Origin: Spirochaetales bacterium
GTDB taxonomy: Bacteria > Spirochaetota > Spirochaetia > Treponematales > UBA12059
NCBI GenBank assembly: GCA_016928955.1
Contig: JAFGJV010000058.1
Location: forward strand, 1 to 63,489
Reading direction: 5' to 3'
DNA length: 63,489 bases
The notes under the pieces are model-generated. The model was not told the DNA's origin and made no database searches. It was given only the letters and a program-made list of their open reading frames with translations. A program made the position numbers and the translations under genes. How positions within the stretch are numbered: position 1 is the stretch's first letter; the number at the start of each line of letters is the position of its first letter. Positions 2,012-63,489 of the stretch are shown in pieces.

Positions 2012-3244
2012 TTAACCCGAGTAGACGGTCTCGTCGCTTGGCATGCTCGACGAGCGGTCCGCGTACAGAAGCTCCCTGAGCGCGGCCATGCCGCCCTCAT
2101 CCAGGCCGAGGAAGGAAACGCCGTAGTACTCGTTTTCCCTGTCCTCAAAACGCCGCACCACCCTGCCCTTGCACAGCAAATCCAGGCTCGGCGCCCGTAT
2201 GCCAAGGTCAAGCACGGCAGCCTGTTTGAGCTTGACCGGATAGCTGGACTTGGGCAGGACGAACAGGCAGCCAGACGCCGAGAAGTCCAGCACGTGGGGG
2301 CGGTGCGGCTCGGGTTTCCCCTTGCCGTCGCCCTTGAAGTATCCTTGTTCCTTGAGCTTCCAGGCCAGGGCCCTGGCGAATTCCCAGGCAAAATCAACGG
2401 CCCGGAAATCCAGGCACACTTTCTTGCTCTCGTCGTTCATGATGTACACATACCCTATGACGTACTGGTAATAGAGCATGGGACAATACACTTCCGACAC
2501 CACGCCGGCCTGGGCCTTCTCAGCCCGGTTCTTCTCCAGGGTTGACCCTTCCAGGAAGATGGACGGGCCTTCGTACGCGTCGGCCATGGCCTGGGTGACG
2601 ATCCTGCCCTCCGGGTAGGGATCGGTGGGCGGCAGGTTGCTTTTGGTGCTGGCCACCAGGAGGACTCTCCCGAGCCGCGTGATGATTTTCTCCTCCAGCG
2701 TCGAGGGCGCTCGTTTGGGCCCGAACATGATGACGCCCGCCTGGCTGTATTTTGCCGTGGCCTTGGCCTGGAAGCTGGCCAGGAGACCGTTCAGGCTGGA
2801 CAGGTCAAAGCCTTCCTTGGGTTCGGGCAGCTCGAGCTCGAGGTACTCGGTCGACTCGGGCACGGTCATGTGGACATGGTCGTTCTGCAGGTAAAATTCC
2901 AGGGCAAGACCCTTGGGCGGGGCGACCCTAACGGCCTTGCGCTGGGGCGCTTTCAGCAGGCGCTCGGGCAGGGCAAGGTGCAGACGGCGGCCGTCCACCC
3001 GGATCACCTTGGACGAAAAGGCCAGGCGCTGCCCCTGGTAGCCAAGCGATGCCGTGACCTCCTCCCAGGAGGCAAAAGGGTTTGGGCCTACGTCGGTCGT
3101 TTCCAGGACCACCACATCCTTGTCAAAGGACGTGATGACGCACCTGGCTGACTTGCCGGGCCCGAAAAGCGACACCGCTCCCTTGGACCTCATCAGCTGG
3201 TTCAGGAGGAATTCTTTCTCTATGAACGTTATGGAATTGGTCAT
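2012..3244 (-). CDS. PilZ protein with a GAF-like insertion (paralogue A)
   Basis: A 410-residue predicted cyclic-di-GMP receptor. The N-terminal 95 or so residues look like the beta-barrel that precedes PilZ in YcgR-type proteins. The PilZ signature is present but split: R102-x3-R106 (in QRKAVR) and D320-x-S322-x2-G325 (in LDFSASG) are about 218 residues apart instead of the usual few tens. Between them, about residues 165-300 read like a GAF domain (EVYCPMLYYQYVIGYVYIMN, then a helix with FARALAWKL). The family may correspond to the spirochaetal DUF1577 group, from memory. The ATG at 3244 is chosen because an extended -10 promoter lies just upstream and paralogue B starts at the equivalent residue. 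Upstream in-frame codons overlap the promoter. Confidence 0.8.
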   Translation of the reverse strand: MTNSITFIEKEFLLNQLMRSKGAVSLFGPGKSARCVITSFDKDVVVLETTDVGPNPFASWEEVTASLGYQGQRLAFSSKVIRVDGRRLHLALPERLLKAPQRKAVRVAPPKGLALEFYLQNDHVHMTVPESTEYLELELPEPKEGFDLSSLNGLLASFQAKATAKYSQAGVIMFGPKRAPSTLEEKIITRLGRVLLVASTKSNLPPTDPYPEGRIVTQAMADAYEGPSIFLEGSTLEKNRAEKAQAGVVSEVYCPMLYYQYVIGYVYIMNDESKKVCLDFRAVDFAWEFARALAWKLKEQGYFKGDGKGKPEPHRPHVLDFSASGCLFVLPKSSYPVKLKQAAVLDLGIRAPSLDLLCKGRVVRRFEDRENEYYGVSFLGLDEGGMAALRELLYADRSSSMPSDETVYSG

Positions 3245-40367: not shown

Positions 40368-40790
40368 CTACTGGCGCAGCACCTGGCTGACCTGGTTGAA
40401 TTCGTAGGCCGCGGCCTGGGTCATCAGCGTGTAGCGCAGTTGGTTCTGCAGTGACGCCATGAATTCCTCTTCCGCGTTGACGTTGTTTCCGTTGTTCTTC
40501 TCCGTGGACAGGTAGTCAAGGACGCGGCGCGGCTCCACGGTTTTCCAGTCCACCGGCTGGTAGTTGGACAAGTGGCGCTCTCTCGAGCGCTTGAGCTCCA
40601 GCACCGGCCTCGAATCCTCGCTGTCTATGGCCCGCTTGAGGAACGACTCAAAGTTGATGTCCGAGCGCTTGAAGTTGGGCACGTCCGCGTTGGCGATGTT
40701 GTTGGCTATCACGCTATGGCGCAGGCTGCTTACGTCCATGCTCCGCTGGAGCAACTCGATGGACCTTCCGAATCCGCTGTTCTCGAACAT
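40368..40790 (-). CDS. flgB: Proximal rod protein FlgB
   Basis: 140 residues from the ATG at 40790, which has a GGAGG ribosome site. The motif LQRSMDVSSLRHSVIANNIANADVPNFKR and the C-terminal helix (LQNQLRYTLMTQAAAYEFNQVSQVLRQ) identify it. The longer open frame would begin inside hslU. First gene of the flagellar block; an 80-base gap with a candidate sigma-28 promoter and a hairpin separates it from hslU. Confidence 0.93.
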   Translation of the reverse strand: MFENSGFGRSIELLQRSMDVSSLRHSVIANNIANADVPNFKRSDINFESFLKRAIDSEDSRPVLELKRSRERHLSNYQPVDWKTVEPRRVLDYLSTEKNNGNNVNAEEEFMASLQNQLRYTLMTQAAAYEFNQVSQVLRQ

Positions 40791-40830
40791 CCCTACCTCC
40801 GCGGCTTCCGCCGCCCAGTTCCACGTTCTA

Positions 40831-40858
40831 GTATCGGCCGCCACGGCCTCCGGGCTTA
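40831..40858 (-). promoter_or_regulatory. Candidate sigma-28 promoter before flgB
   Basis: On the minus strand, TAAG (40858-40855), a 16-base spacer and GCCGATAC (40838-40831). The -10 matches 7 of 8 bases of the FliA consensus GCCGATAA and the -35 three of four, with the spacer one base longer than the usual 15. It lies 41 bases before the flgB ATG. Confidence 0.4.
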
Positions 40859-40865
40859 GCCCGGA
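40849..40865 (-). other. Hairpin between hslU and flgB
   Basis: A perfect seven-base stem, TCCGGGC paired with GCCCGGA, around a TTA loop, six bases after the hslU stop. No U tract follows, so it is not a standard terminator. It overlaps the -35 side of the candidate sigma-28 promoter. Confidence 0.5.
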
Positions 40866-40870
40866 AGCCC

Positions 40871-42244
40871 TCACAGGATGAAGCGTCCCAGATCCTCGCG
40901 CTCGAATACCCCGGCAAAACGTTCGTCCACAAAGGCCTGGTCTATCTCGATGCGCTGTCCGGAGCGCTCTGGCGCGTCGAAAGACAGCTCCTCAAGGAGG
41001 TGCTCCATCACCGTGTGGAGCCTGCGCGCGCCTATGTTCTCCGTCCTGGAATTGGCCGTCTCGGCTATGCCGGCCAGCCTGTCCAGTGCTTCCTCAGTAA
41101 AGGCCAGGTCCACGCCCTCCGTGGACAGAAGCTGCGCGTACTGCTTGACCAGGGCGTTCTCTGGCTCGGTCAGGATACGCCGGAAATCGGCGGCCAACAG
41201 CGCGTCCAGTTCCACCCGTATGGGAAAGCGCCCCTGCAGTTCGGGTATGAGGTCCGTTGGCTTGGACACGTTGAAGGCGCCGGACGCTATGAACAGGATG
41301 TGGGTGGTGTCCACCACGCCGTACTTGGTGCTCACCTTGCTGCCTTCCACGATGGGCAGGATATCGCGCTGGACGCCTTCCCGCGACACGTCCATGCCGC
41401 CAGACTTGCCTTCCCGGTTGGCTATCTTGTCTATTTCGTCTATGAAGATGATGCCGGCCTGCTCCACCCGCTCCCGGGCATCGGCGCTTGCGCGGTCTCG
41501 GTCCACCAGGCGCTCTGCTTCCTCCTCCTGGAGTATGCGGCGGGCATCCGCCACGGTAACGGACTTTTTCTTCTTCTTGCCGCCAAAGAGCCCGCTCAGG
41601 CCTGACAAGGCAGACTCGAGCTCCTCCATCTGCTGTCCGGAAAAAATCTCTATAGACGGCGTGTTCTGCGACGCCACCTGCACTTCCACCATGCGCTGGT
41701 CCAGGGAACCGGAGCGCAGCATGGCCCTGAACTTCTCCCGCGTGTCCGACTGGGCGCCGGGCAACGGCTGGGGGACGACAAGTCCGGCCCCGGCGGCTTC
41801 CTGCGGCTTCTGGCCGACGCCCGGCAGGAGAAGGTCCAGAAGCCGTTCCTCCGCCCTGCTGTCCGCGTCGGCCTTGACGGCTGCCTGCATCTCTTCCATG
41901 ACCATGCGGAAACCAGCGGCCATCAGGTCGCGGACCATGGACTCAACGTCCCGTCCCACGTAGCCGACCTCGGTGTACTTGGTCGCCTCTACCTTGACAA
42001 AGGGAGCCCCGCACAGCCTGGCCAGGCGCCTGGCTATCTCCGTCTTGCCCACGCCGGTGGGGCCCATCATCAGGATGTTCTTGGGCGCTATCTCCTCGCG
42101 CTGGGCCTCCGGAAGGAGCTTGCGCCTGAGCCGGTTGCGCAGGGCTATGGCCACCGCGCGCTTGGCCCTGTTCTGGCCTATGATGTGGCGGTCCAGCTCC
42201 TCGACGATGCGGCGCGGCGTGAAGACGGTAAAATCCTCGGTCAC
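40871..42244 (-). CDS. hslU: ATP-dependent protease ATPase subunit HslU (ClpY)
   Basis: A 457-residue AAA+ unfoldase. It starts with [17 protein letters not shown], has Walker [16 protein letters not shown], the pore loop GYVGRDVE, Walker [12 protein letters not shown] and the C-terminal EDLGRFIL that docks into HslV. A charged insertion (about 150-235, including GGKKKKKSV) is the I domain. The start overlaps the hslV stop by ATGA. Confidence 0.96.
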
Positions 42245-42783
42245 GACAGCTCCTCCACGATTACCTGGTCATTGGTGTATATGCATATGTTCCCGGCTAT
42301 ACCGAGGCTCCGCTTGGCCACCTCTGCGGCGCTCAGGGCTCCGGCCTGGTCGGCATCCATATAGGCCAGGGCGGCCGAGTACGCGTAGTTGCCGCCCGAG
42401 CCTATGGCTATTGCGTTTTCCGCTGGCTCTATCACGTCCCCGGTCCCGGACAGAAGCAGGGTCTTGTCCCGGTCGGCGACCAAAAGGAGGGCTTCCAGGC
42501 GCCTGAGCATGCGGTCGGTGCGCCAGTCCTTGGCCAGCTCCACGGCCGCGCGCGTGAGGTCGCCAGAATGCTCCTTGAGCTTGCCCTCGAAGTGCTCGAG
42601 CAGGGTAAAAGCGTCGGCCGTGGCCCCGGCAAAGCCGGCCAGAACCGTGCCGTTGTGGATGCGCCTGACCTTGCGAGCGTTGCCTTTGACCACGGCCTCT
42701 CCCATGGTCACCTGGCCGTCTCCGGCCATGGCCACCGCGCCGCCGCGCCGCACAGCTATCACCGTGGTAGATCTGATCGTCAT
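42241..42783 (-). CDS. hslV: ATP-dependent protease peptidase subunit HslV (ClpQ)
   Basis: A 180-residue threonine peptidase. The proteolytic Thr aligns with Thr6 in [13 protein letters not shown], so a five-residue propeptide must be removed. The conserved [13 protein letters not shown] and [13 protein letters not shown] stretches are present. The ATG at 42783 overlaps the 3' end of xerC by four bases. The longer open frame extends into xerC and is rejected. Confidence 0.95.
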
Positions 42784-43739
42784 GCTTGTTCCTTCCTGGG
42801 CCGCCCGCCCCGCGTCGGCGCTCCCTTGCGCGGCGGAACCGCGGCGGCAGGGGACTCGGCATGCGGATGGGCGCGCTGGTACACGGAGCGCAGGCGCTCT
42901 ATGTCCACGTGGGTGTACACCTGCGTGGTCGATATGCTCTCGTGGCCGAGCATGGCCTGGACGGTGCGGATGTCCGCTCCCCTGCCCACCATGTGCGTGG
43001 CGAACGAGTGGCGGAACCCGTGGGGCGACACCCTGGAGCGCAGGCCCACGGCGAGCGACCGGCGCTCCACGATCCACGCTATGCCGCGCTCGGTCAGCTT
43101 GCCGCCCCTGGCGTTGAGAAAAAGCCAGGGCTGGAGACGCTCCGCCTTCATCCTGGCCTGCCGGTACGGGAGCCAGGCGCGGATGGCGGCCACCGCGGGG
43201 GCGGACAGGAACACCACGCGCTCCTTGGCTCCCTTGCCCCGCACGCGGGCCCTTCCGGAATCCAGATCCACGGCCGCCATCGTCAGGTTGGACAGCTCCG
43301 ACACGCGGCAGCCCGTGCTGTACATGGTCTCGAACAGGGCGGAGTCCCGGGCCGGGGCAAAGCCGTCGCCCGCGGTAGAGTCCAGTAGCTCGTTCATCTC
43401 GCCCTCGAAGAGGAAACCCGGCAGGCGCCTGGCCAGTGGCAGGGCTTCCACGTCCCGAGCGGGGTTGGTCAGCGCCTTGCCGTAGCGGGTGAGGTAGCGG
43501 TACAGGCCTTTGACCGCGGACAGGGCCCGGTTCACGGACGCTGTGGCATAGCCGTCGCGAACCATGCCGGCCACAAAGGCCCGCACGTCCGCAGGGCCCG
43601 CGTCGTCGGGCGTCACGCCCGAGCGAGCGCAGGCCGCCTCATAGAGGGCTAGGTCCTCACGGTACGACGCAACCGTACGCGGCGACAGCGAACGCACCGC
43701 GGCCAGGTAGGCCAGATACTCGTCAGTCTTCGCCGACAT
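42780..43739 (-). CDS. xerC: Tyrosine recombinase XerC (CodV-like)
   Basis: 319 residues. An N-terminal SAM-like core-binding domain (about 4-90) precedes the catalytic domain with Arg in [12 protein letters not shown], the HxxR box [21 protein letters not shown] and the Tyr in VYTHVD. It resolves chromosome dimers together with a second Xer protein. The ATG at 43739 overlaps the topA 3' end by 17 bases. Position between topA and hslV is that of Bacillus codV. A Pro/Arg-rich tail follows the catalytic domain. Confidence 0.92.
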
Positions 43740-45876
43740 GCTCGTCGTCCTGACTGTGGAGATAGTCGCACGCGGGGTTGATGCACGCCTTGTACGACCC
43801 GCGCTTTTTGTCAAAGCGTTCCACCAGGAACCAGCCGCACTTGGGACAGTGGCTGTTGGTAGGCTTGTAGTAGGTGATGAAGTCGCACTCGGGGTAGCGA
43901 GAGCAACCGTAGAACTCACGGCCGCGGCTCTTGGCCTTTCGGCGCGCCACGATATCGCCTCCGCAGCCGGGGCGCGGGCATTTGGCCAGGGGGATGCTCT
44001 TGGTGTTCCTGCATTCGGGGAACCCGGTGCATGCCAGGAAGAAACCAAAGCGGCCGAGCTTCTTGACCATGGGCTTGCCGCACTTGTCGCATACCTGGTC
44101 GCTCGGCTCGTCCAAGGTGCCGCGGTAGCTCTGGAGGGTTTCCATCACCTCGTCCACGCGGGCCTTGAAGGGCCCGTAGAAGTCGCCCATGGACGCCACC
44201 CAGTCGCGCTTGGACTCCTCCACCTGGTCCAGCATGGATTCCATGCCTGCCGTGAACCCAGCGTCCACCACGTCCGGGAAGGACTCAACCAGAATGTCGT
44301 TGATCATGCGGCCCAGGGTGGTGGGTACGAGCTGGCGGTTCTCGCGCGTCACGTAGTAGCGCTCCAAAAGGACCGATATGATGGGCGCGTAGGTGGACGG
44401 CCGCCCTATGCCCTTCTCTTCCAGCATCTTGATGATGGACGCGTCGGTGAAGCGGGACGGACCCTGGGTAAAATGCTGTTCCGGCCTGTAGCCTTCGAGC
44501 TTGAGCTGTTCGCCCACTTTCATGTCCGGCAGGGCGGATTCCTTGTCGTCCTTGGTGGCCAAAAGCTTGATGACCTTGTAGAAGCCCTTCTCCGCCAGCC
44601 TTGACGCGTTGACGCGGAACAGGGCGTCGCCTGCGGCCACGTCCAGGGTAGCGGTGCGCATCCTGGCCGGAATCATCTGGCTGGCCACAAAGCGCTCCCA
44701 GATGATGGTATACAGCCTGAGCTGGTCGCGGTTCAGGTACTCCTTTATGGAATCCGGGGTATACGACACCATGGTTGGCCGGATGGCCTCATGCGCGTCC
44801 TGGGCTTTCTTGTCCGTGGCGTAGGCCACCGGCTCGGGCGGGAGCTCGGCCGGATAGTGCTGGCCAAGATAGTCGCGCAGCTCGGTCAGGGCCACGTCGG
44901 ACACGCGCACCGAGTCCGTGCGCATGTAGGTGATGATACCTATGCGCGTGGAGCCTATGTTGACGCCCTCATAGAGCTGCTGGGCCACCTGCATGGTCTT
45001 CTTGCTGGTAAAGCCCAGGCGGTTGGCAGCTGTCTGCTGGAGCTTGCTGGTGGTGAACGGCGGCTTGGGCTTGATGGAGCGCTCGGTCTCCCGGATGTCG
45101 GCGGCCACGCAGGGAGCGCCGGACACGGCGTCCATGACGGCTCGAACGTCGGCCTCGCTCCTGAGGTTGACCTTGTCGCCCTTGAAGGATACCAGCTCGC
45201 CCGAGAACGAAAAGCGGCCTTTCTTGAAATCGGCCTCCAAGCTCCAGTATTCCTCCGGGATGAAGGACTCCACGTCGCGCTCGCGCTCGCAAATCAGGCG
45301 CAGGGCCACCGACTGGACGCGGCCGGCCGACAGGCCGTTCTTTACCTTTTTCCACAAGAGGGGGGATATGCTGTAGCCGACGATGCGGTCCAGCACGCGC
45401 CGCGCCTTCTGCGCGTTCACCTTGTCCTCATCCAGCTCGTGCGGATGCTTGACGGCGTCGCGTATAGCCTGGGGCGTGATCTCGTTGAACACGATGCGCT
45501 TGATGTCCAGGCCTTCCAGCTTGGCCAAAAGGGCGTTGCGTATGTGGTAGGATATGGCCTCGCCCTCGCGGTCGTTATCGGAAGCCAGGAGCACGGCCGA
45601 GGATTTCTTGGCCTGCTTCTGGAGTTCCTTCAGTAGCTTTGCCTTGCCGCGTATGGTCAGGTACTCGGGCGTAAAGCCGTGCTCCACGTCAACGCCCATG
45701 CGCGACTTGGGCAAGTCTATGAGATGCCCCATGGACGCCAGCACCACGTACTTGTCGCCCAGGTATTTCTCTATGGTCTTGGCCTTGGCCGGCGACTCGA
45801 CGATGACCAGGGTGGGTTTCTTCTGAGCCGCTGGTTTGCGGGTCTTCTTCTTGGTTTCAGGTGCTTCACTGGCCAT
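43723..45876 (-). CDS. topA: DNA topoisomerase I
   Basis: A 717-residue type IA topoisomerase that relaxes negative supercoils. The N-terminal Toprim domain (VIVESPAKAKTIEKYLG; DNDREGEAI) is followed by the catalytic Tyr in ITYMRTDSVRVSD. Three C-terminal zinc ribbons occupy about residues 590-705, each with four cysteines (for example CDKCGKPM...CTGFPEC). An N-terminal Lys-rich extension of about 20 residues is present. It follows dprA by 40 bases. Confidence 0.96.
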   Translation of the reverse strand: MASEAPETKKKTRKPAAQKKPTLVIVESPAKAKTIEKYLGDKYVVLASMGHLIDLPKSRMGVDVEHGFTPEYLTIRGKAKLLKELQKQAKKSSAVLLASDNDREGEAISYHIRNALLAKLEGLDIKRIVFNEITPQAIRDAVKHPHELDEDKVNAQKARRVLDRIVGYSISPLLWKKVKNGLSAGRVQSVALRLICERERDVESFIPEEYWSLEADFKKGRFSFSGELVSFKGDKVNLRSEADVRAVMDAVSGAPCVAADIRETERSIKPKPPFTTSKLQQTAANRLGFTSKKTMQVAQQLYEGVNIGSTRIGIITYMRTDSVRVSDVALTELRDYLGQHYPAELPPEPVAYATDKKAQDAHEAIRPTMVSYTPDSIKEYLNRDQLRLYTIIWERFVASQMIPARMRTATLDVAAGDALFRVNASRLAEKGFYKVIKLLATKDDKESALPDMKVGEQLKLEGYRPEQHFTQGPSRFTDASIIKMLEEKGIGRPSTYAPIISVLLERYYVTRENRQLVPTTLGRMINDILVESFPDVVDAGFTAGMESMLDQVEESKRDWVASMGDFYGPFKARVDEVMETLQSYRGTLDEPSDQVCDKCGKPMVKKLGRFGFFLACTGFPECRNTKSIPLAKCPRPGCGGDIVARRKAKSRGREFYGCSRYPECDFITYYKPTNSHCPKCGWFLVERFDKKRGSYKACINPACDYLHSQDDEHVGED

Positions 45877-45916
45877 CGTTCAAACTCCTCATTCTGGTAT
45901 GGGCGACTATGGCGCC

Positions 45917-46825
45917 TTAGCGATCCGCGGCGAGCGCGGCCCTTCCTGCACCGGCCCAGTCGGCCGCCACGTCCTTGAAACAGCTCACGGGCAGGGCTCC
46001 GTCGGCCTCCAGGGCGTCCGAGCCCTCCGAGCGCTGACCGCCTGCCGCGTCGGCGGCTATGTATACGTCCCGCCCTTCCTCCAGCGCGTAGTCGGCCGTA
46101 ATCAGGGCGCCCGAGCCTTTTGGCGCCTCGACCACCAGGGTGGACCGGCACAGGCCCGCGATAATGCGGTTCCTCTCCGGAAAAGTCCAGCGGGCGGGGG
46201 CCGTGCCCGGAGGATACTCGGACAATAGCCCGCCGCCTGACGCCAGCATCTTGGCGGCCAGATCCTTGTTGGACAGGGGATATACCCTGTCCAGGCCCCG
46301 CCCGAGCACCGCAAAGGTGGGCGCGCCGCCCTCCATGCAGCCCCGGTGCGCCGCCGCGTCTATGCCGCGAGCCAGCCCGGATACCACGGTCACGCCCGCC
46401 TCGGCGGCCTCCCGGGCCAGACGGCGCGCCGCCTCCAGGCCCCTGCCCGTGGGATAGCGCGTGCCCACCATGGCCACGGCTGGCCGGTTCGGATCCGGCA
46501 GGCGCCCCCTCACGAACAGCAGGAAGGGCGGGCGGGCCGTCTCGCGCAGGGCTGGCGGATAGTCCGAATCGCCATACGCGCTGGCCCTGACACCAGCCGC
46601 CTTCATCCAATCCAGGTCCCGCCTGGCTTCATACACCATCAGCTCTGGCCGCCACGCGTCCGTTCTCAGAGTCCGTCCGCACAGTCGCTCCAGGTCGGAA
46701 CGGCCCAGGCCTTGTAGCCCGCGGGCGTCCCCTGCCACGTCCGCCACCAGGGAACGTTCGCGCGCGTTCATGCACGGCGAACGCGCCAGGGCAAGCAGGC
46801 ACAGAAGGCTCTCATCACTGGTCAT
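45917..46825 (-). CDS. dprA: DNA-processing protein DprA (Smf)
   Basis: 302 residues. A Rossmann-like core with VAMVGTRYPTGRGLEAARRLA, VVSGLARGIDAAAHRG, VLGRGLDRVYP and the ssDNA-pocket segment FPERNRIIAGL. DprA loads RecA on incoming single-stranded DNA in natural transformation. The ATG at 46825 overlaps the preceding gene by 11 bases. The long N-terminal extension in the same frame is antisense noise. Confidence 0.93.
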   Translation of the reverse strand: MTSDESLLCLLALARSPCMNARERSLVADVAGDARGLQGLGRSDLERLCGRTLRTDAWRPELMVYEARRDLDWMKAAGVRASAYGDSDYPPALRETARPPFLLFVRGRLPDPNRPAVAMVGTRYPTGRGLEAARRLAREAAEAGVTVVSGLARGIDAAAHRGCMEGGAPTFAVLGRGLDRVYPLSNKDLAAKMLASGGGLLSEYPPGTAPARWTFPERNRIIAGLCRSTLVVEAPKGSGALITADYALEEGRDVYIAADAAGGQRSEGSDALEADGALPVSCFKDVAADWAGAGRAALAADR

Positions 46826-47576
46826 ACAGCTCGTCCAGGATGAGCTTCTTGTTCTCAGCGGCCAGGGCCTTCTTGTCTTCCACCGTGGAAAATTCCAGAA
46901 CCTTGTCAAAGGCATCGACGGCGTCCTCAAGGCGGCCGGCCCCGTACAGGGCCCGACCGTACACCAGGAAGCCGTCGGCGTCCCGCGTGTTGATCTCAAG
47001 GTACCGTTCCATGAAAGAGGCTGCCTCCGCGTGCCTGTCCATCTCGTAGGTGTACAGCACGGCCAGCCCATACAGGCCCCTGCCGTATCTTGGATCAAGC
47101 TCCAGGGCCTCAAGATAAGCCTGCTCGGCAGTCATGAGCCAGGACAGGCGGTCTGCCTGGGCTCCCTGGACCTGGACTGACGCCGCTTTGGCCAGGTTCC
47201 CAGCGGACACGCCAACCACGTAATACAGGCCAGTGTTTGTCGGATACGAGCGCAAGGCCGTGATAGCGGCGTCATACGCCTCGCCGTACAGGCCCCTGTC
47301 CATCAGCTTGAAGGCCAGCAGCCGCCAATAGCCCGCGTGGTCGGCCATGGCCTGGGCGGTCTTTTCGGCCTCGTCGCCGTACTCGCGTATCGCCTCCCTG
47401 AGCTCCTCGACGCTGGACGGCGGGGCATTCTTCATAGCCCGCTCCTCCAGGTCGAACATGCGCTCAAGGAAATTCGCGTCTTTGTCCCCTGAACAGGACG
47501 ACAAGGCCAGAAGCGCGGGGGCCAGAAGCGCCATCGTGAGAGCGGCCGTCATGCGGCCGGGAATCGTACGTATCAT
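46815..47576 (-). CDS. TPR-repeat lipoprotein
   Basis: 253 residues with a lipoprotein signal peptide (lipobox LSSC, Cys28). The mature part contains tetratricopeptide-like repeats (for example YGEAYDAAITALRSYPTN, TAEQAYLEALELDPRYGRGLYGLA and RLEDAVDAFDKVLEF), so it is a protein-binding scaffold at the periplasmic face or outer membrane. It overlaps xerD by four bases and dprA by 11. Partner unknown. Confidence 0.85.
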   Translation of the reverse strand: MIRTIPGRMTAALTMALLAPALLALSSCSGDKDANFLERMFDLEERAMKNAPPSSVEELREAIREYGDEAEKTAQAMADHAGYWRLLAFKLMDRGLYGEAYDAAITALRSYPTNTGLYYVVGVSAGNLAKAASVQVQGAQADRLSWLMTAEQAYLEALELDPRYGRGLYGLAVLYTYEMDRHAEAASFMERYLEINTRDADGFLVYGRALYGAGRLEDAVDAFDKVLEFSTVEDKKALAAENKKLILDELYDQ

Positions 47577-48541
47577 GCTCGCTTCCCTCCTTCCGCCCCT
47601 ACGCCGGCCGGAACGCGGGCGCTTGCGTTTGGGCGTGTTGTATCCGCCTGGCCCCTGTCCCGCCTCGGGAAGAAGCCGTCGTGCGCCCGGGCCAGGTCGT
47701 CTGCGTCCACGTGGGTGTATATCTGCGTGGTGGCTATGTCCGCGTGCCCCAGGAGCTCCTGCACGGTGCGCAAGTCCGCTCCGCCGGCCAGAAGGTGCGT
47801 GGCAAAGGAGTGCCTGAGCGTGTGCGGCTTGCCGCTGACCCCGCTGGCCGCCCGCAGTTCGTCAAAACGCTTCCATACGCCCTTGCGCGATATTCCCGCT
47901 CCCGAGCGGTTGAGAAACACCAGGTCCGAGCGCTTGTTTTTTGCCAGAAGGGGCCTGGCCTCGTCCAGGTAGCGCGACAGCCACGCGGCGGCCTCGTCGC
48001 CAAAGGGCACGATGCGCTCCTTGCGCCGCTTGCCCGTTACCCGGATGATCCTTTCTTTAAGATACACCATGTCAAAGCTGAGGGTGGCCGCTTCGGATAT
48101 GCGGAGGCCGCAGGAGTAGATCAGCTCGAACAGGGCCCGGTCACGGAGACCCCCGGGCGAGGCCACGTCTATGGCTCCCAGAAACCGGTCAACCTCGTCG
48201 CGGCGGTACACGCCGGGCAGGCTCCGCTCCTGCCTGGGCAGTTCCAGGAGCTCCGTGGGGTCGTCGGCCCGCACGTTCTCGAGCCGGAGGAATTTGTACA
48301 GTCCCCGCAGGCCTGACACGATACGCGCCAGCGTCCTGGCCGACAAGCCCCCTGAGCGCCTGGACACCAGATATTCCAGGATGTTCTCCGTGGCCGCCGA
48401 CTCTACGGACAGGCCCCGCCCGCCCAGCCAGGCTTCCAGGCTTCGAGCTTCGCGGATATAGGCGTCCAGGGTCAGGGGCGAACGGCGGCGGGCCGCAAGC
48501 AGCCAGGCGCCGTAGCGCTCTATCGCGTCGCGGGCGGGCAC
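47573..48541 (-). CDS. xerD: Tyrosine recombinase XerD
   Basis: 322 residues, second Xer recombinase of the run. Catalytic residues: Arg in SCGLRISEAATL, the HxxR box HTLRHSFATHLLAGG, LGHADIATTQ and the Tyr in IYTHVD. The N-terminal core-binding domain begins RYGAWLLAARRRSPLTLDAY. The name XerD rather than XerC is from neighbourhood and overall resemblance and could be the other way round. Six bases after ftsZ. Confidence 0.88.
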   Translation of the reverse strand: MPARDAIERYGAWLLAARRRSPLTLDAYIREARSLEAWLGGRGLSVESAATENILEYLVSRRSGGLSARTLARIVSGLRGLYKFLRLENVRADDPTELLELPRQERSLPGVYRRDEVDRFLGAIDVASPGGLRDRALFELIYSCGLRISEAATLSFDMVYLKERIIRVTGKRRKERIVPFGDEAAAWLSRYLDEARPLLAKNKRSDLVFLNRSGAGISRKGVWKRFDELRAASGVSGKPHTLRHSFATHLLAGGADLRTVQELLGHADIATTQIYTHVDADDLARAHDGFFPRRDRGQADTTRPNASARVPAGVGAEGGKRA

Positions 48542-48547
48542 GGGTGT

Positions 48548-49765
48548 TTACGCCTCCCCTTTTACGGCCACGCCGCGCCGCTCGCGGAGGACCGTGGGTA
48601 TGTCCAGGTCGTCGCCGTCGTTGCGGCCCATAAGGTAGCTGCGGGAGCTGGGCGTAATCATCGAGCGCCACTCGTCGGCGTCCAGGAAATCGGACTCCGG
48701 TTCCTTGACGGCCTCTTTATGGACGGACAGGGCGGGCTCTTCGCGGCGCCTGCGGGAGAATCCCGTGGCTATCACGGTCACCTGGACGTCCTCGCCTATG
48801 TCGTCGCGCTCCACCAGGCCCGATATGATCATGGCGTCCTTGTCCGCCTTGGCCGACACGATGGACACGATCTCCTCGAACTCGGTCAGGGTAAAGTCGG
48901 CTCCCCCGGTCACGTTGACCAGGATGTGCTTTGCCCCGTCCATGCTTGCGTCTTCCAGCAGGGGATTGGACACCGCACGCTCGGCCGCTTCCACGGCACG
49001 GTTGTCGCCGGACGCCCGGCCCACGCCCATCAGAGCGTCGCCCCTGCCGCGCATGACCGTGCTCACGTCGGCAAAGTCTATGTTGATCTCCCCGGGCACC
49101 GTGATCAGGTCCGATATGCCCTGCACGCCCTGCCTGAGCACGTCGTCTGCCAGGATGAAGGCCTGGCGTATGGGCGTGCGCTTTTCCACGATGCGCATCA
49201 GGTGCTGGTTCGGTATGACAATGAGGGTGTCCACCTGCTGCCTGAGCTTCTCGATGCCGTCCTCGGCCAGGCGCATCTTGACCTTGCCCTCGAACTCGAA
49301 GGGCTTGGTCACCACGGCCACCGTCAGGGCGCCCAGTTCCCGGGCCACCTGCGCGATGACGGGAGCCGAACCGGTGCCCGTGCCGCCGCCCATGCCAGCG
49401 GTGATGAACACCATGTCGGCGCCGCGCAGGTGCTCGGCTATCAGCTCGCGGTCCTCGTTGGCGGCCTTTTCCCCGATCTCGGGATTGCCGCCGGCGCCCA
49501 GGCCGTGCGTGACCTTGGCGCCTAGCCCGAGCCGCACGGGCGCCCTGGACTTGTTCAGGGCCTGCAGGTCGGTGTTGGCGACGACGAAGTCGACGTTGCG
49601 GACGCCTTCGTCGATCATCCTGTTGACCGCGTTCGAACCGCCGCCGCCGGCCCCTATCACCTTGATGACCGTGGCGTTAGCGTCGTCCGGCAACGGACTG
49701 CCCTCGTCTCGGACCCATGTCTGTTTCCCGAATTCCTCGCTGTCGTCCACCAACCTCAGCGTCAT
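48548..49765 (-). CDS. ftsZ: Cell division GTPase FtsZ
   Basis: 405 residues from the ATG at 49765, which has GGGAGGGG upstream. The tubulin signature is [18 protein letters not shown], and [22 protein letters not shown] and the T7 loop (NIDFADV) are present. The C-terminal peptide [12 protein letters not shown] is the FtsA-binding tail. It forms the Z ring at midcell. It follows ftsA by 104 bases. Confidence 0.97.
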
Positions 49766-49869
49766 AATCCCCTCCCCCGTTGTTATCATTACCTTGCCAG
49801 GCGGAGTGCGGGTCCCCCGCGCCGCCTGTGTATCCCCGGATGCGCCGTGTCAGCGGCGACCTCGGGCCG

Positions 49870-57789: not shown

Positions 57790-58485
57790 TCAGGCGGGGA
57801 ACACGTACAGATCTGGCAACTTGTGCACTACCTGCATAGAAAAGGAAGCGTCCGCGCTTGCTTGGGCCGTAACGTCCAGCTCCAGGTAGTGGACCATGGG
57901 CTCGTATCCCTCCACGGCCGTCTCTATGGAAAACGCAAAGTTGCGGACCGCGCCCGTCGCATCCGCCGTGGCAGGCCGCGGCCAGAAAATGAAGGTGCCC
58001 GCCGTGTTCCTCACGATCGGATAGGGATTCTGCCAGTTGGCGTCCATCATGGTCACCAGGGCCCCGTCCTCCTTGAGGCTGACCGTGCCCTGGGCTATGG
58101 GCTCAAAATTGTTGCCGTTGAACAGGCGGCCCATGATGGGCGGTACGTTGAAGGCCGGCCCTGCCGGCAAGGCTTCCGGCTCCAAGCGGCGATCGTGGGG
58201 GTGGTTGGGACGCTTGGCCGAGTTGATCTGGGCCCAGCCCTCCCGTACCAAGGACACCACATCGGCGGTGCGCTGGAGCTTCTCCACGTAATCCATTTCC
58301 GAATACGCCACGCCGCGCCCGGACACCACGTACTCGGGTTTCAGGCGGTTAAGCACGTAACAGGCAACGTCCATCCTGCACTGGGAACAGGTGCACCAGG
58401 ATCCGGCCTGGCCGCGTTCCTCCGCGTCGAACAGCTCGTTGACGGTGGCCTTGACGAGCTCTTCCATCAGGTTGTGGATGTCCAT
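57790..58485 (-). CDS. ComFB-family protein, possible cyclic-dinucleotide receptor
   Basis: 231 residues. The N-terminal 85 or so residues match late-competence protein ComFB: DIHNLMEELVKATVNELFD, the cysteine cluster CTCSQCRMDVACYVLNRLKPEYVVS. The C-terminal region (about 110-231) is a beta-rich domain I do not recognise. Recent work on cyanobacterial ComFB proteins reports cyclic-di-nucleotide binding, so a signalling role is plausible. It overlaps the TtcA-like gene start region by 19 bases and shares its transcript. Confidence 0.75.
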   Translation of the reverse strand: MDIHNLMEELVKATVNELFDAEERGQAGSWCTCSQCRMDVACYVLNRLKPEYVVSGRGVAYSEMDYVEKLQRTADVVSLVREGWAQINSAKRPNHPHDRRLEPEALPAGPAFNVPPIMGRLFNGNNFEPIAQGTVSLKEDGALVTMMDANWQNPYPIVRNTAGTFIFWPRPATADATGAVRNFAFSIETAVEGYEPMVHYLELDVTAQASADASFSMQVVHKLPDLYVFPA

Positions 58486-59243
58486 GCGTCCTCCGGATGT
58501 CCGCCCCGCCCCGTCGGCGCCAGGGCTCGGAACAGGTTCTCCCGTACCAGTGTATCGATTTTAGCCAATTCCGCAAGCACGGGCTTGTACGCCTGCCTTC
58601 TGGACAGGCTGGATCGTGGGCAGGAGTCGGCCAGCACGGGCAGGCCAAGGCGCGACACGAGCGTGCGTATGCTGGACTCCCGCACCATGATCAGGGGACG
58701 CACCAGCGTGTACTGCCCAAAGAAGCCGGCCACCGGCCGCAGGGGCTCCGCCCTGCCCGCCCGCGCCAGGTTCATGATGGCCGTCAGGGCAAAGTCGTCC
58801 AGGTGGTGGCCAAGGGCAACAACGCCGCAGCCCAGGTCCCGCGCCGCCTCGAACAGCACGCGCCTTCTTTCGCGCGAGCACACATAGCAATCCAGGCCGC
58901 CGTCTTTCATGGCGCGAGGCAGGGGCCTCCGCTCCAGGCTGAAAGTCGCGCCCAGGGCCGCGGCCAGGTCATTCAGGGCATTGAGGTCGTCGGGACGGGC
59001 ATCCATGCCTTCCCACTCGACGCGTACCGCGTGTATTCCGTAGTCGTCCTTGACCCTGCGACGCCTGAGGGCCAGGGCCACGAGCAGGGCCAGGGAGTCC
59101 TTGCCGCCAGACAGTCCGACCAGGACCCTGTCGCCGTTGGCCACCATGCCGTAGCGGTGCACCGCCTTGCCCGCGAGCGACAGAAAACGCTGGACATAGC
59201 CCGGGTAGCGGCCGTCCAGGACGGCCCTCAGCTGGTCGTTCAC
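58467..59243 (-). CDS. ttcA: TtcA-like PP-loop tRNA thiolation enzyme
   Basis: 258 residues. The ATP-pyrophosphatase loop is LVGLSGGKDSLALL. A CxxC pair (DCYVCSRERRR) and a later Cys (ADSCPRSSLSRR) match the three iron-sulphur ligands of TtcA, which makes 2-thiocytidine at tRNA position 32. GHHLDDFALTAIMNLARAG is the second conserved block. A related PP-loop enzyme of another specificity cannot be excluded. Its start overlaps the HD gene stop by ATGA. Confidence 0.75.
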   Translation of the reverse strand: MNDQLRAVLDGRYPGYVQRFLSLAGKAVHRYGMVANGDRVLVGLSGGKDSLALLVALALRRRRVKDDYGIHAVRVEWEGMDARPDDLNALNDLAAALGATFSLERRPLPRAMKDGGLDCYVCSRERRRVLFEAARDLGCGVVALGHHLDDFALTAIMNLARAGRAEPLRPVAGFFGQYTLVRPLIMVRESSIRTLVSRLGLPVLADSCPRSSLSRRQAYKPVLAELAKIDTLVRENLFRALAPTGRGGHPEDAWTSTT

Positions 59244-60484
59244 GCCTCCGGGCCCAGGATACTGCGGGCAGCCAGGGCCACGCGGTCCGGCTGCCCGTCG
59301 GTGTACACCCTGAGCACGCGCAGGGATCTGGTGAAGGACGACACCACCTCGGGGCGGAACACGGTGGCGGACTCGGAGAACGAGCCGCCCGATCCGAGCA
59401 CGGGCAGGTCTGACTCAAAGGATATGGGCTCAGGCAGGTCGACGATGACCGAGCGCCCTCGTTCGTCCGCCGGGAGGGCGTCCGTTATGGCCGTTTCCAC
59501 ATCCGCGCGGCTGTCCAGGCTTGCCGCGGCCGCGTGGGCGGGCAAGGCCTCCTCGTAGGGCAGTTCCAGGCAACAGCGCATGAGGGCACCAGACTTGACG
59601 GCGGCTATCATGCCCAGCCTATCGCGGCCTTCCATGAGGGCGTAAAAACCTGCGTCGTCCAGCCCGTACAGGGCATCTGGCTCGAGGGTGCCGGAGGCCA
59701 GGGCGCTTACCACGGCCTTCTTGATCATGGCCGTGGCTGCGCGGACGCCCCGGTGCCAGTACACGGCCTTGTACATCTGGTATTTGCTGAACAGCACGGC
59801 CTCGACCGCCATGACGCCGCGCCCGTCCACGCCGGGCCGTCCGTCGTCGCCCATCCCGATATGCTGCAGCACAAAATCAACGTCCTGCAGGCCGTAGGGC
59901 ACGCCGCAAGCCCAGGCGTCGCGGTTGAGGTAATCCAGCTTGTCCGGGTCCAGGACACCGGACAACAGGCGCCTAAAGAGGCCGAGCCAGGGCGCGTCCG
60001 CGCTGGGAGCGGGCAGGTCCTGGTCGACGATAGCCGCCACCAGCTCCGGATCGGCACCGGCCCCGCGGATGAACGGCGACAGGGAGCCTGTCACGATCCT
60101 GGCGGTCAGCGCCTCGTGCTCGGCCAGGGGCAGTTCCTTAAGGGAATGGGCGTAGGGGAAATGCCCAAGGTCGTGGCAGAGCGCGGCCAGCAGGAAAGCC
60201 CGTGCAGATGCCTGATCCATGCCGTCCAGGCAGCCTGTCGAGGCCAGGGCAGACAGCTGGCGCCTGGCCATCTCGTACACGCCTATGGAGTGGGCGCGGC
60301 GCGTGTGGGTGGCGCCGGGATACACCAGATGGGCCGGCCCGAGCTGGAGTATGCGCGACAACTGCACGAATTCGGGCGCTTCTATGACCGGCAGGAAGGA
60401 CGGCGGTAGCAGTATGTTGCGCCAGATGGGATCGCGCACGGGCTCCGTAAAAGCGGTGCCAAACAGCCTGGAATCGTCGAACAT
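59240..60484 (-). CDS. HD-superfamily phosphohydrolase (dNTPase-like, COG1078 type)
   Basis: 414 residues. The metal-binding HD set is visible: His in YPGATHTRRAHSIGVYEMA, the HD pair in CHDLGHFPYAHSL and the Asp in DPDKLDYLNRDAW. This pattern is that of SAMHD1-like and YwfO-type hydrolases, which cleave dNTPs or related nucleotides; the substrate here is unknown. ATG 60484 has AGGGGG upstream and is preferred to the start 33 bases earlier, which would overlap the promoter. Confidence 0.82.
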   Translation of the reverse strand: MFDDSRLFGTAFTEPVRDPIWRNILLPPSFLPVIEAPEFVQLSRILQLGPAHLVYPGATHTRRAHSIGVYEMARRQLSALASTGCLDGMDQASARAFLLAALCHDLGHFPYAHSLKELPLAEHEALTARIVTGSLSPFIRGAGADPELVAAIVDQDLPAPSADAPWLGLFRRLLSGVLDPDKLDYLNRDAWACGVPYGLQDVDFVLQHIGMGDDGRPGVDGRGVMAVEAVLFSKYQMYKAVYWHRGVRAATAMIKKAVVSALASGTLEPDALYGLDDAGFYALMEGRDRLGMIAAVKSGALMRCCLELPYEEALPAHAAAASLDSRADVETAITDALPADERGRSVIVDLPEPISFESDLPVLGSGGSFSESATVFRPEVVSSFTRSLRVLRVYTDGQPDRVALAARSILGPEA

Positions 60485-60500
60485 GAGTCCCCCTTCCGCC

Positions 60501-60529
60501 TTGCCTGACCGTACCAAGCACGATACTAT
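60501..60529 (+). promoter_or_regulatory. Promoter of the lipoprotein gene, with almost no leader
   Basis: TTGCCT (60501-60506), 17-base spacer, TACTAT (60524-60529). The ATG follows nine bases later at 60539, so transcription would start at or very near the start codon. The -10 overlaps that of the divergent HD gene. Confidence 0.5.
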
Positions 60530-60538: not shown

Positions 60539-61333
60539 ATGAAACAGCCGTCACCGAGCGGAGCGCTCGCCGCCACAGCCTTGTTGTGCCTCTTGCTGGC
60601 AGCCTGCCCCAGGACCGGGGATACCCAGGCCCCCGGGAACGGCTCCCTGCCCGAGACGGTGCGAATCGAACCCGGGAACGCAGGCTCGGACACGACGCCC
60701 GAACCGCCGGCGCCCCTCCCCGAGCCCCCGGCCGTTGAGACAGCCGATGAAAGCGGCGCACCCAGAGGCGCCGTGCCCCTGGAACCCGGCCTGCCGCGGC
60801 CGCCGCTCGGACAGAACTCGGCCCAGGCTGACCCAAAGCCCAAACAGCCGGGGCCGCCCGTAACCAGCGCCCTTGGCGGCCACGAGCGCTTCCTGACGCG
60901 CCGCCCCCTGGACCTGACACCCGCCCGCGATTTCCAGCTCGGGCTCCTGGCGTCGGGCACGGAACCGGGGTACGCGCCCGTATCCGCCCTGGCCGCAGGC
61001 CTTGCCAAACGCGTGCTGCCGGCGTCGGCCTTTACCGGGGACGCGTATGCGGTGGCCTTTGGCCTGTATGCCGACGCCCTCGGTTCGGCCGCTGAGCCCG
61101 CGGATGTGCGCGTGGCCGCCCCCCAGGCCGCCCCCGGCGGGGGCCAGTGGTACGAGCTGGCCATACTCGGCACGGGCTACCGCGTACTTGCCGGCGCCCT
61201 GGCCTATCCCCAGGAAAACAGCGCCTGGCTGATAGAGCATTTCGAGCTGGACACGGCCGCCTTTGGCCGCGAGCGCCCGAGCACGGAGTCCTGGGACCCC
61301 TACGCCACGCCCGCGCCCCGCCCCTGGAAATAG
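60539..61333 (+). CDS. Hypothetical lipoprotein
   Basis: 264 residues. Signal peptide with lipobox LAAC (Cys23). A long Pro/Glu/Ala-rich linker (about 25-115) precedes a globular part (about 118-250) I do not recognise. The ending is Pro-rich (YATPAPRPWK). No clear ribosome site precedes the ATG, in line with a leaderless mRNA. 33 bases before the second PilZ gene, so the two are probably co-transcribed. Confidence 0.75.
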   Translation: MKQPSPSGALAATALLCLLLAACPRTGDTQAPGNGSLPETVRIEPGNAGSDTTPEPPAPLPEPPAVETADESGAPRGAVPLEPGLPRPPLGQNSAQADPKPKQPGPPVTSALGGHERFLTRRPLDLTPARDFQLGLLASGTEPGYAPVSALAAGLAKRVLPASAFTGDAYAVAFGLYADALGSAAEPADVRVAAPQAAPGGGQWYELAILGTGYRVLAGALAYPQENSAWLIEHFELDTAAFGRERPSTESWDPYATPAPRPWK

Positions 61334-61366: not shown

Positions 61367-62614
61367 ATGGCAACCCTGGTCAAGAACATAGAACGCGAAT
61401 TCCTCCTCCAGGCGGCCAAGCGCGAGCGCGCCGTCCTGTCCATGTCGGCTGGCGGGGGAGAGTGGAATACCCATATCATGGATGTGGGACCGGGCTCGAT
61501 AACGCTCGAGCATGGCGCCCCCCTGTCGGCGCTCCGCAAGGGCGCCATCCTGGAGTTCCGCTGCGCCCTGCGTGGCCAGACCCTTGCCTTCAAGACCACG
61601 GTCCTGGAGCCAGGGGCGCGCACGCTCAAAGTCGCCCTGCCGGACAAGCTGTACAAAAACCTCCTCAGGCGCTTTGCCCGGATGGCGCCTCCGGGTGACC
61701 TCTCCGCGTCGTTCTCGTTTCTGGGCGAGCGTTATGACCTGGATTTCCCCTCGGGCGGGGCGTACGGCCCCAGCGACAGCTTCCAGCCATCCGAGGATTT
61801 CAATCCCGCCGACATCAGGGAACTGGTGGCAGAGTTCGACCGCAAGGCAGGAGGGGCCGCGTCCGAACACGGCATCGTCATGTACAAAAACCGCATTCCC
61901 CAGGGGCCCGTGGAACGCCTGGCCGCGGATACCGGCCGCGCTTTTTACCTGCCGTCCATACTGTCCGGCCTGCCCCTGAGCGATCCCTTTGCAGAGCGCA
62001 CCATACTCACGCGGGACGACTTTCTGTCCTGGTTCATGGACGAAGAGGGCCTGGACCGCGAATTCGCCGAGGACGAGGTGGTACGGCTCGAGAGGGCCAA
62101 GCGCAACGACGGGGTGCTGTCCGAGCTGCTGGTGCCCGTGCTCTTCCAGGAATACGTGCTCGGACACGTGTCGGTTACCAACAAGCGCCAGGGCCATCCG
62201 CCCCTGGACCTCAAGGCCGTGGAAACCTTCGGCGCCTTCGCGCGGGCCCTGGCCTGGTCGCTCAAGCTCCATGGCTACTTCAAGGGCTCTCCCCGCCTGG
62301 ACGACAGCTACGCCACGGAGGTGCTGGACGTGTCAGCCGGGGGGCTGTTGTTCGCGTGCCGCGACGCGCGGCTCATACAGGCCCTGAAAGACGGCTCCGA
62401 GGTCAATGTGCGCGTCAGCGCCAAGCGCCGGAACGTGGACGCGGTCGGCGTCATCCGCAGGCATTACGCCGCCACCAGGGAAGGCCTCTTTGGCATCGAG
62501 TTCACCGGAATGGCGCCTGAGGACTTCCGATTCCTCTTCGAGTACCTGTACGGCCGGGCCTTCACGGACGGCGACGCCGATTCTGTGGAAGGCGTCCGGG
62601 TGCTCAGGCCCTGA
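61367..62614 (+). CDS. PilZ protein with a GAF-like insertion (paralogue B)
   Basis: 415 residues, paralogue of the protein at 2012-3244. Same architecture: N-terminal barrel (about 1-95), R101-x3-R105 (LRRFAR), a GAF-like segment (about 165-300; SELLVPVLFQEYVLGHVSVTN, then FARALAWSL), D321-x-S323-x2-G326 (LDVSAGG), and the rest of the PilZ barrel (RRHYAATREGLFGIEFTG). Similarity between the paralogues is strongest at the ends of the insertion and in the second PilZ half. Followed directly by a strong terminator. Confidence 0.8.
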   Translation: MATLVKNIEREFLLQAAKRERAVLSMSAGGGEWNTHIMDVGPGSITLEHGAPLSALRKGAILEFRCALRGQTLAFKTTVLEPGARTLKVALPDKLYKNLLRRFARMAPPGDLSASFSFLGERYDLDFPSGGAYGPSDSFQPSEDFNPADIRELVAEFDRKAGGAASEHGIVMYKNRIPQGPVERLAADTGRAFYLPSILSGLPLSDPFAERTILTRDDFLSWFMDEEGLDREFAEDEVVRLERAKRNDGVLSELLVPVLFQEYVLGHVSVTNKRQGHPPLDLKAVETFGAFARALAWSLKLHGYFKGSPRLDDSYATEVLDVSAGGLLFACRDARLIQALKDGSEVNVRVSAKRRNVDAVGVIRRHYAATREGLFGIEFTGMAPEDFRFLFEYLYGRAFTDGDADSVEGVRVLRP

Positions 62615-62677: not shown

Positions 62678-63235
62678 TCAGCCTATGGCGTGCTTCTTCT
62701 GCGGGAATTTCTTCAGCATGGCCACGGCGTTGCGCTTGTTGTTGAACACAAAGCCGCCGTTCCAGTATTCCAGCGCGGCGAACAGGGCGTTGCCGCCGTC
62801 GTTGTCGTCGCTCTTTTGCGTGCGGAAGGACACAAAGTCTGACAGCTTCTCAAAATCCTGCTCGGACAGGATTTCCAGGCGCTTGCGGTTGAACGCGTTC
62901 CATTTCTCCAGGTCCTTGAAACCGTCGCCCTCGTCCTGGACGATCAGGTGGGCGTGGGTGGAGTCGAATGAGTACCACACGCGCACCTTCTTGGCCGTGT
63001 CGCTGTGGTTGCCGTGCTTGACGGCGTTCTTGATCACCTCGGATATCTGCTGCTCCAGGAGGTTGATCTCCTTGATTTCCAGCGGGGCCGACTGGACGAT
63101 CAGCAGGGTGAAATAGCGTATCTGCCGGTAGTCCGACGGGAACTCCTTGAACAGCATGCCGGTCTTGTCGAACAGGGGGCTGTTCTCGTCAACGCGGATT
63201 TCGTGGATCTCGCTCAGATAGGTTTTGTCTGACAT
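62678..63235 (-). CDS. RsbW-like anti-sigma/ATP-binding regulatory protein
   Basis: 185 residues with an HATPase_c_2 domain: N box LLEQQISEVIKNAVKHGN and G1 IVQDEGDGFKD. It resembles RsbW/SpoIIAB anti-sigma factor kinases, but has a longer C-terminal part (about 125-185) with a further glycine loop (DDNDGGNALFAALEYW). Its target may be the STAS protein encoded eight bases upstream. The ATG at 63235 is used; the longer frame runs into the STAS gene. Confidence 0.85.
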   Translation of the reverse strand: MSDKTYLSEIHEIRVDENSPLFDKTGMLFKEFPSDYRQIRYFTLLIVQSAPLEIKEINLLEQQISEVIKNAVKHGNHSDTAKKVRVWYSFDSTHAHLIVQDEGDGFKDLEKWNAFNRKRLEILSEQDFEKLSDFVSFRTQKSDDNDGGNALFAALEYWNGGFVFNNKRNAVAMLKKFPQKKHAIG

Positions 63236-63243
63236 AGGTTCTC

Positions 63244-63489
63244 CTAGTCTTCCATCTGCTGGATGGCTTCCTCGATGCTGTTGGTGATCGGGAAGTAGCC
63301 CATGAGCTTGGTCAGCTCGATGACCTTTTTGACCGAACCGTGGATGTTCGTGATGATGAGCTTGAGGTTCATCTTCTTGATGGTCGAGCAAATGTAGATG
63401 AGGGCGCCTATTCCGCTCGAGTCGATATAGTCGACGTTTTCCAGGTTGATGATGAAGCGCTCGACCTTCTTCTCGAGCATCTTCATGAC
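63244..63489 (-). CDS. STAS-domain anti-sigma factor antagonist (5' end outside window)
   Basis: At least 80 residues. The phosphorylation motif is NVDYIDSSGIGALIYI, with the Ser of DSSG as acceptor. A complete STAS protein is about 105-115 residues and the first strands (before VERFIINLENV) are missing, so the gene continues past the window edge; the ATG at 63486 is probably internal. Paired with the RsbW-like kinase downstream. Confidence 0.85.
   Translation of the reverse strand, partial: VMKMLEKKVERFIINLENVDYIDSSGIGALIYICSTIKKMNLKLIITNIHGSVKKVIELTKLMGYFPITNSIEEAIQQMED

Follow-up and report, generated by a model that had tools for sequence, protein, structure and literature searches.

The window analyzed here, a 63,489-nucleotide stretch of spirochaete DNA, carries two divergent proteins (paralogues A and B) in which the two c-di-GMP-binding motifs of a PilZ domain, RxxxR and DxSxxG, stand some 220 residues apart, which raises the question of whether two such distant half-motifs belong to one working domain and, if so, what that domain serves. 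Paralogue B is encoded at 61367..62614 on the forward strand (415 aa, stop included in the coordinates) and was assigned as a YcgR^GAZ-type protein from homology, its predicted model, and fold matches. Its half-motifs are R101-x3-R105 (RRFAR; 61667..61681, +) and D321-x-S323-x2-G326 (DVSAGG; 62327..62344, +). Paralogue A, also a YcgR^GAZ-type protein, lies at 2012..3244 on the reverse strand (410 aa if the ATG at 3244 is the start codon; the coordinates include the stop) and carries RKAVR (residues 102-106; 2927..2941, -) and DFSASG (residues 320-325; 2270..2287, -). An earlier note on this DNA had given the spacings as 220 residues in B (R101 to D321) and 218 in A, and rechecking returned both values as well as the coordinates, strand, length, and every residue number claimed for B. 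The two proteins are homologous almost from end to end (29% identity, blastp E 1e-44), and they were the sole two matches in the source genome at E 0.01. Since the half-motifs of the four other PilZ proteins of this genome are separated by 29-44 residues, as compared with 218 and 220, both A and B carry an insert of approximately 180 residues, and B does not possess the contiguous PilZ domain of canonical YcgR (220 versus 29-44).

The same note had argued that conservation of both half-motifs in divergent copies makes the split arrangement functional. To examine conservation we assembled 192 distinct full-length family members from loci found in Spirochaetota searches, with two short ORFs (L180, L204) and exact duplicates dropped; 75 of these came from a pattern scan whose patterns include DxSxxG and are therefore biased, and the other 117 came from profile or single-protein searches. 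Both arginines of RxxxR were kept in all 192 members (117 of 117 in the less-biased subset) and [DN]xSxxG in 187 (112 of 117), the exceptions being two A-type proteins with DxTxxG (L043, L053) and three proteins with DxGxxG. Among the 187, half-motif spacing ranged from 171 to 224 with a mode of 219 (n=89). In a divergent 26-row alignment (A1) with a mean column identity of 36%, the invariant columns were R101, R105, P257, L299, F305, S323, G326, and R365. Alignment thus tested whether the half-motifs of A and B are homologous and conserved in the family, and the attempt at refutation failed; their near-invariance across the 192 relatives rules out chance as their source. Among the 80 relatives kept out of 167 in a contig scan, 78 were labeled as spirochaetes and two carried just the label "bacterium" (L084, L088). 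The three DxGxxG proteins (L182, L185, L188) form a distant clade in which RxxxR is kept and the spacing is 197; altered ligand geometry or lost binding is possible there.

The Pfam PilZ profile matched B at residues 312-395 (4.5e-8; profile positions 20-101 of 102), and the match started at profile position 20 in B and 22 in A, i.e., without the RxxxR end. Cutting the insert out in silico did not lengthen the PilZ match in either protein (33.3 versus 33.8 bits in B, 41.9 versus 42.9 in A), so the sequence-level case for a single PilZ domain rests on alignments and models. A profile (A3) that already includes paralogue A, run against PDB sequences, aligned its positions 100-112 with QRQFARVKLPARI and its positions 312-390 with the remainder of Alg44, a weak hint toward a single domain (E 0.59). 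Pfam PilZNR was matched in just 2 of the 26 rows of alignment A1.

AF2 models of B (pLDDT 82.8, pTM 0.66, 38 rows) and A (pLDDT 81.8, pTM 0.68, 27 rows) both displayed a PilZN barrel, RxxxR followed by a strand hairpin, an alpha/beta insert, and the remaining PilZ strands. In B the predicted PilZN (YcgR-N-like) barrel comprises residues 1-97 (61367..61657, +), with a VIA match of model residues 1-100 to E. coli YcgR-N 5y6h (Z 13.3, rmsd 2.5 Å, 100 aligned; Z 12.8 for A); by inspection neither an NpzN domain nor a transmembrane helix precedes PilZN in B, the ORF opening with the PilZN helix and strands. The first strand hairpin of the split PilZ barrel, assigned by DSSP on the model, comprises residues 113-126 (61703..61744, +) and is followed by the inserted GAF-like (GAZ) domain at residues 129-312 (61751..62302, +). 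The GAF fold itself spans 142-302, where VIA matched GAF structure 2qyb (Z 11.6, rmsd 3.0 Å, 124 aligned; Z 11.9 for A), and a helix at 147-164 precedes the first GAF strand of the model. Pfam GAF (PF01590) scored 16.2-18.1 bits (E 0.016 for B), below its curated cut-off of 22.4, and the GAF assignment is accordingly a fold match. The remainder of the barrel occupies residues 316-396 (62312..62554, +). Contiguous Alg44 PilZ with bound c-di-GMP (4xrn) aligned across the insertion in both models, with 93 residues of B (model 105-396 versus chain 9-106; Z 9.7, rmsd 2.4 Å) and 94 of A (model 103-395 versus chain 5-106; Z 11.3, rmsd 2.7 Å). E. coli YcgR with c-di-GMP (5y6f) was matched over model residues 1-396 of B (Z 14.1) and by A (Z 13.5); the high overall rmsd of such two-domain matches (4.6-17 Å in B) reflects uncertainty in how the domains pack. 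In the model of B the RxxxR loop (99-105) has a pLDDT below 50, as would be expected of a loop ordered by its ligand, a fit that proves nothing by itself. For both A and B the models predict PilZN followed by a PilZ barrel into which a GAF-like domain is inserted behind the first strands.

This architecture was named YcgR^GAZ by Visnardi et al. 2025 (PMC11800159), who searched for it with Pfam DUF1577, the Pfam name for it under which the Leptospira members are filed, together with custom models. Like the published proteins, A and B combine PilZN and PilZ with a GAF-like domain that is inserted behind the first strand and separates RxxxR from [DN]xSxxG, are approximately 400 aa long, and occur as several paralogues per genome in spirochaetes; members are reported in Spirochaetales at 1-2 copies per genome (PMC11800159). 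Unlike the Leptospira proteins, B scored DUF1577 below its cut-off (10.6 bits, E 0.3, cut-off 25) and A had no match, and 9 of the 10 distant members of the same profile family that were scanned did match DUF1577 (best 1.6e-47). On the strength of the published architecture and the DUF1577 matches of these distant members, A and B are new members of the YcgR^GAZ family. The published GAZ domain is described as being without the GAF alpha-1 dimerization helix (PMC11800159). YcgR, MotI, PP4397, and VCA0042 share both barrels and both c-di-GMP motifs with B, whose model aligns over 1-396, but in their known structures the PilZ domain is continuous and lacks a GAF insert. In the tPilZ protein XCC6012 (3RQA) the insertion point, between strands 1 and 2, is the same, but the insert is made of helices in a stand-alone domain that does not bind c-di-GMP (PMC11800159), as opposed to the PilZN and GAF-fold insert of B.

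Whether the split domain still binds its ligand is addressed most directly by the Leptospira YcgR^GAZ protein LIC_11920, which is reported to bind c-di-GMP 2:1 as a monomer with a KD of 60-300 nM, binding being abolished in the R112A/R116A double mutant (PMC11800159); the motif result was repeated in a second paper (PMC12943098). Together with the contiguous PilZ structure that spans both halves in both models, this experiment supports the claim that the split arrangement is functional. It also bears on the idea that the half-motifs are relics of a PilZ domain that no longer binds c-di-GMP, the GAF-like insert alone being at work. Such a reading could draw on the 5 of 117 less-biased members that depart from [DN]xSxxG, two of them A-type, and on the A clade, where conservation is higher in the insert than in the second half of PilZ, but with RxxxR intact throughout the family, DxSxxG intact in both window copies, and binding lost upon mutation of the arginines in LIC_11920, we regard it as highly improbable. 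We conclude instead that B is very likely a c-di-GMP receptor, binding by B itself being inferred. In the mechanism we propose, the half-motifs, distant in sequence, would meet in the fold of the reassembled PilZ barrel; the c-di-GMP signal is made by the source genome itself, which has 20 GGDEF matches above cut-off and 4 EAL matches; the RxxxR loop would close over c-di-GMP against DxSxxG, a movement that should alter the packing of PilZN against PilZ in the manner of YcgR; and the ligand-bound protein would act upon a partner, most likely the periplasmic flagellar motor (FliG/MotA side), as YcgR does. The GAF insert may add a second input or a partner surface.

In order to distinguish the two paralogues, we built a tree of 88 representatives (quick IQ-TREE run with SH-aLRT as its sole support measure; branches outside the A and B clades are long). 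A-type and B-type proteins formed separate starred clades, the former with members from families f1 and f4 and a single f2 genus, the latter with members from f1, f4, and f3. All sampled f3 rows were B-type and two f2 rows were A-type, one of these genomes (G365) having a second match. Because A and B form separate clades across families, the duplication appears, from these sequences, to be older than the families which share both types. Within the A clade mean pairwise identity was highest in the insert (0.45), compared with 0.30 in PilZN, 0.43 in the RxxxR region, and 0.34 in the second PilZ half; for B of f1 and f4 the corresponding values were 0.54, 0.44, 0.64, and 0.52. The two genes lie approximately 60 kb apart on one contig in all six genomes in which both were found on a single contig (G000, G321, G341, G378, G422, G307).

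The surroundings of the two genes differ. Upstream of B are a ComFB-domain protein (57790..58485, -; 231 aa; Pfam ComFB 1.5e-21), a PP-loop ATPase (58467..59243, -; ATP_bind_3 2.5e-15) that we take to be TtcA/TilS-like, an HD-domain protein of the SAMHD1-like phosphohydrolase family (59240..60517, -), and, directly upstream on the same strand as B, an ORF of 264 aa (60539..61333, +) with no Pfam match, whose relatives were found by synteny only in part of family f1 and at a few close loci. The C-terminal part of the ComFB protein, approximately 140 residues, has no Pfam match. Convergent with B is an HATPase_c_2 (anti-sigma/RsbW-like) ORF (62678..63391, -; start uncertain, with an in-frame ATG further in), a homologue of which adjoins many B-type loci and one f64 locus (L230). 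We probed 40 loci, 26 of them B-type or class single-copy and 14 A-type, by phmmer with the window proteins. ComFB was found near all 26 of the former (families f1, f3, f4, f5, f11, f14, f55, f57, and f58) and HD near 23, and neither was found near any of the 14 A-type loci. Another set of 14 loci, which includes Breznakiella homolactica and may partly repeat genomes of the 40-locus set, had both ComFB and HD at every locus. No ComFB-HD arrangement turned up at another 20 loci, of which 18 lie outside the class and 2 belong to class family f64. A has a conserved place of its own in f1 and f4 loci, near a helicase (12 of 12) and PGI (11 of 12). B is thus the positional ortholog across class Spirochaetia and A is a later duplicate.

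The earlier note had also stated that both copies flank a motility locus, which is true in a loose sense: 10-20 kb with housekeeping genes separate each copy from the nearest flagellar gene. A lies 10.6 kb beyond FapA and 12.6 kb beyond the gene for the sigma factor, and B lies 20.5 kb beyond flgB. The gene order on the reverse strand at 40368-49789 is flgC-flgB-hslU-hslV-topA-dprA-TPR-xer-ftsZ, and a similar dprA-topA-xerC-hslVU-flgB order is known from Bacillus. Distance from the flagellar genes leaves room for the view that A and B are YcgR^GAZ c-di-GMP receptors whose output lies elsewhere than the flagellar motor (e.g., envelope, transcription, or division control), flagellar closeness being an accident of a large conserved cluster. 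When 18 out-of-class loci were searched with the window probes, one FapA and one match to an unassigned flagellar-cluster ORF were found, in keeping with that view. So is the presence in the source genome of two other YcgR-like proteins, L232 669-1754 (-) and L233 507-2141 (+), each with a hydrophobic N-terminal stretch and contiguous motifs; by inspection of their sequences they resemble the YcgR^NpzN type (PMC11800159), so the YcgR job may be theirs. The L233 reading frame likely starts later than 507.

To evaluate the link with the flagellum across genomes, we examined co-occurrence in 389 Spirochaetota genomes of at least 90% completeness. FliG_C was present in 332 and missing from 57. The GAZ profile matched in 134 genomes, 106 of them at E <1e-10 (some of the 28 weaker matches may be other PilZ proteins), and ComFB in 229; all 134 GAZ genomes and all 229 ComFB genomes had FliG, and neither GAZ nor ComFB was found in any of the 57 FliG-less genomes. 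The hypergeometric values of 2e-9 for the 106 strong GAZ genomes and 8e-26 for ComFB ignore kinship and are not the probability of a functional link. Indeed, the FliG-less genomes are not independent, as the 20 listed of the 57 fall in 2 families, and the number of independent losses may be few. The contrast also appears within family f4, where G244 and G307 have FliG, two GAZ genes each, and ComFB, whereas G361, G370, and G431 have neither FliG nor GAZ nor ComFB. The converse does not hold: 198 FliG-positive genomes of the sample had no GAZ match, so flagella do not need GAZ.

Eleven FliG-less genomes were examined for the neighboring genes. HD was kept in 9 of the 11 and a PP-loop match in all 11 (one weak), directly beside HD in 6, and PilZ proteins were found in none. 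In these genomes both c-di-nucleotide receptors are absent and the genes between them are kept. This survey speaks to the proposal that the B locus is a nucleotide-metabolism unit in which B regulates the adjoining HD phosphohydrolase or PP-loop enzyme. The frequency of HD near B-type or class single-copy loci (23 of 26) is what such a unit would predict, but the HD/PP-loop pair persists where GAZ, ComFB, and PilZ are gone and hence does not need B; B in turn does not need HD, as an HD search in the flagellate f4 genome G244 gave no match. We consider the proposal improbable, and the HD and PP-loop genes were dropped as functional partners of B after the survey.

The loss of every PilZ protein from the 11 FliG-less genomes means that co-occurrence does not separate a motor role from general c-di-GMP signaling, and it can be counted toward an output other than the motor. 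Against such an output stand the strict confinement of GAZ to FliG-positive genomes and the contrast within f4, and on balance we judge it rather unlikely. Genomic context and co-occurrence favor, without proving, a flagellum-linked role for B, and we infer that its output is somewhat more probably flagellar than otherwise. The best overall explanation, and one we hold to be reasonably probable, is that B is a spirochaetal YcgR^GAZ c-di-GMP receptor with a split PilZ domain and output to the flagellar motor.

The constancy of ComFB beside B suggests a more specific, and more tentative, picture. ComFB is a reported receptor family for c-di-AMP and c-di-GMP in cyanobacteria, where the protein CdgR has the same ComFB domain as the window gene (PMC12313861); it is a different family and gene from B, and the roles reported are cyanobacterial (competence, cell size) and not flagellar (PMC12313861). 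The window ComFB protein matched the CdgR structure 8hja weakly (E 0.28), and our search of the open-access literature found no paper joining ComFB with spirochaetes or flagellar control. It is conceivable, though we would not call it likely, that B-type YcgR^GAZ and the neighboring long ComFB protein constitute, in Spirochaetia, a module of two c-di-nucleotide receptors that serves the periplasmic flagella specifically, flanking an unrelated housekeeping HD/PP-loop pair, with both receptors lost along with the flagellum while the housekeeping genes stay; the motor would then have been regulated ancestrally by B and not by A, and in the duplicate, A, constraint would have moved to the GAF insert.

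According to the authors who described the family, it could not yet be told from genomic context and evolutionary history which of the YcgR^GAZ paralogues has kept control of the flagellum (PMC11800159). The available text of that paper mentions neither the ComFB/HD neighborhood of B, nor the duplication behind A and B, nor a co-occurrence with FliG and with ComFB. What is new here is evidence from evolution and gene context that points to B in particular and presents ComFB as a candidate partner. The situation in Spirochaetia is simpler than that in Leptospira, with one positional ortholog (B) and one later duplicate (A), of which some lineages kept only A or only B and relatives without a flagellum have neither. 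Importantly, this evidence names a testable gene, B, for the paralogue question left by the YcgR^GAZ paper (PMC11800159).
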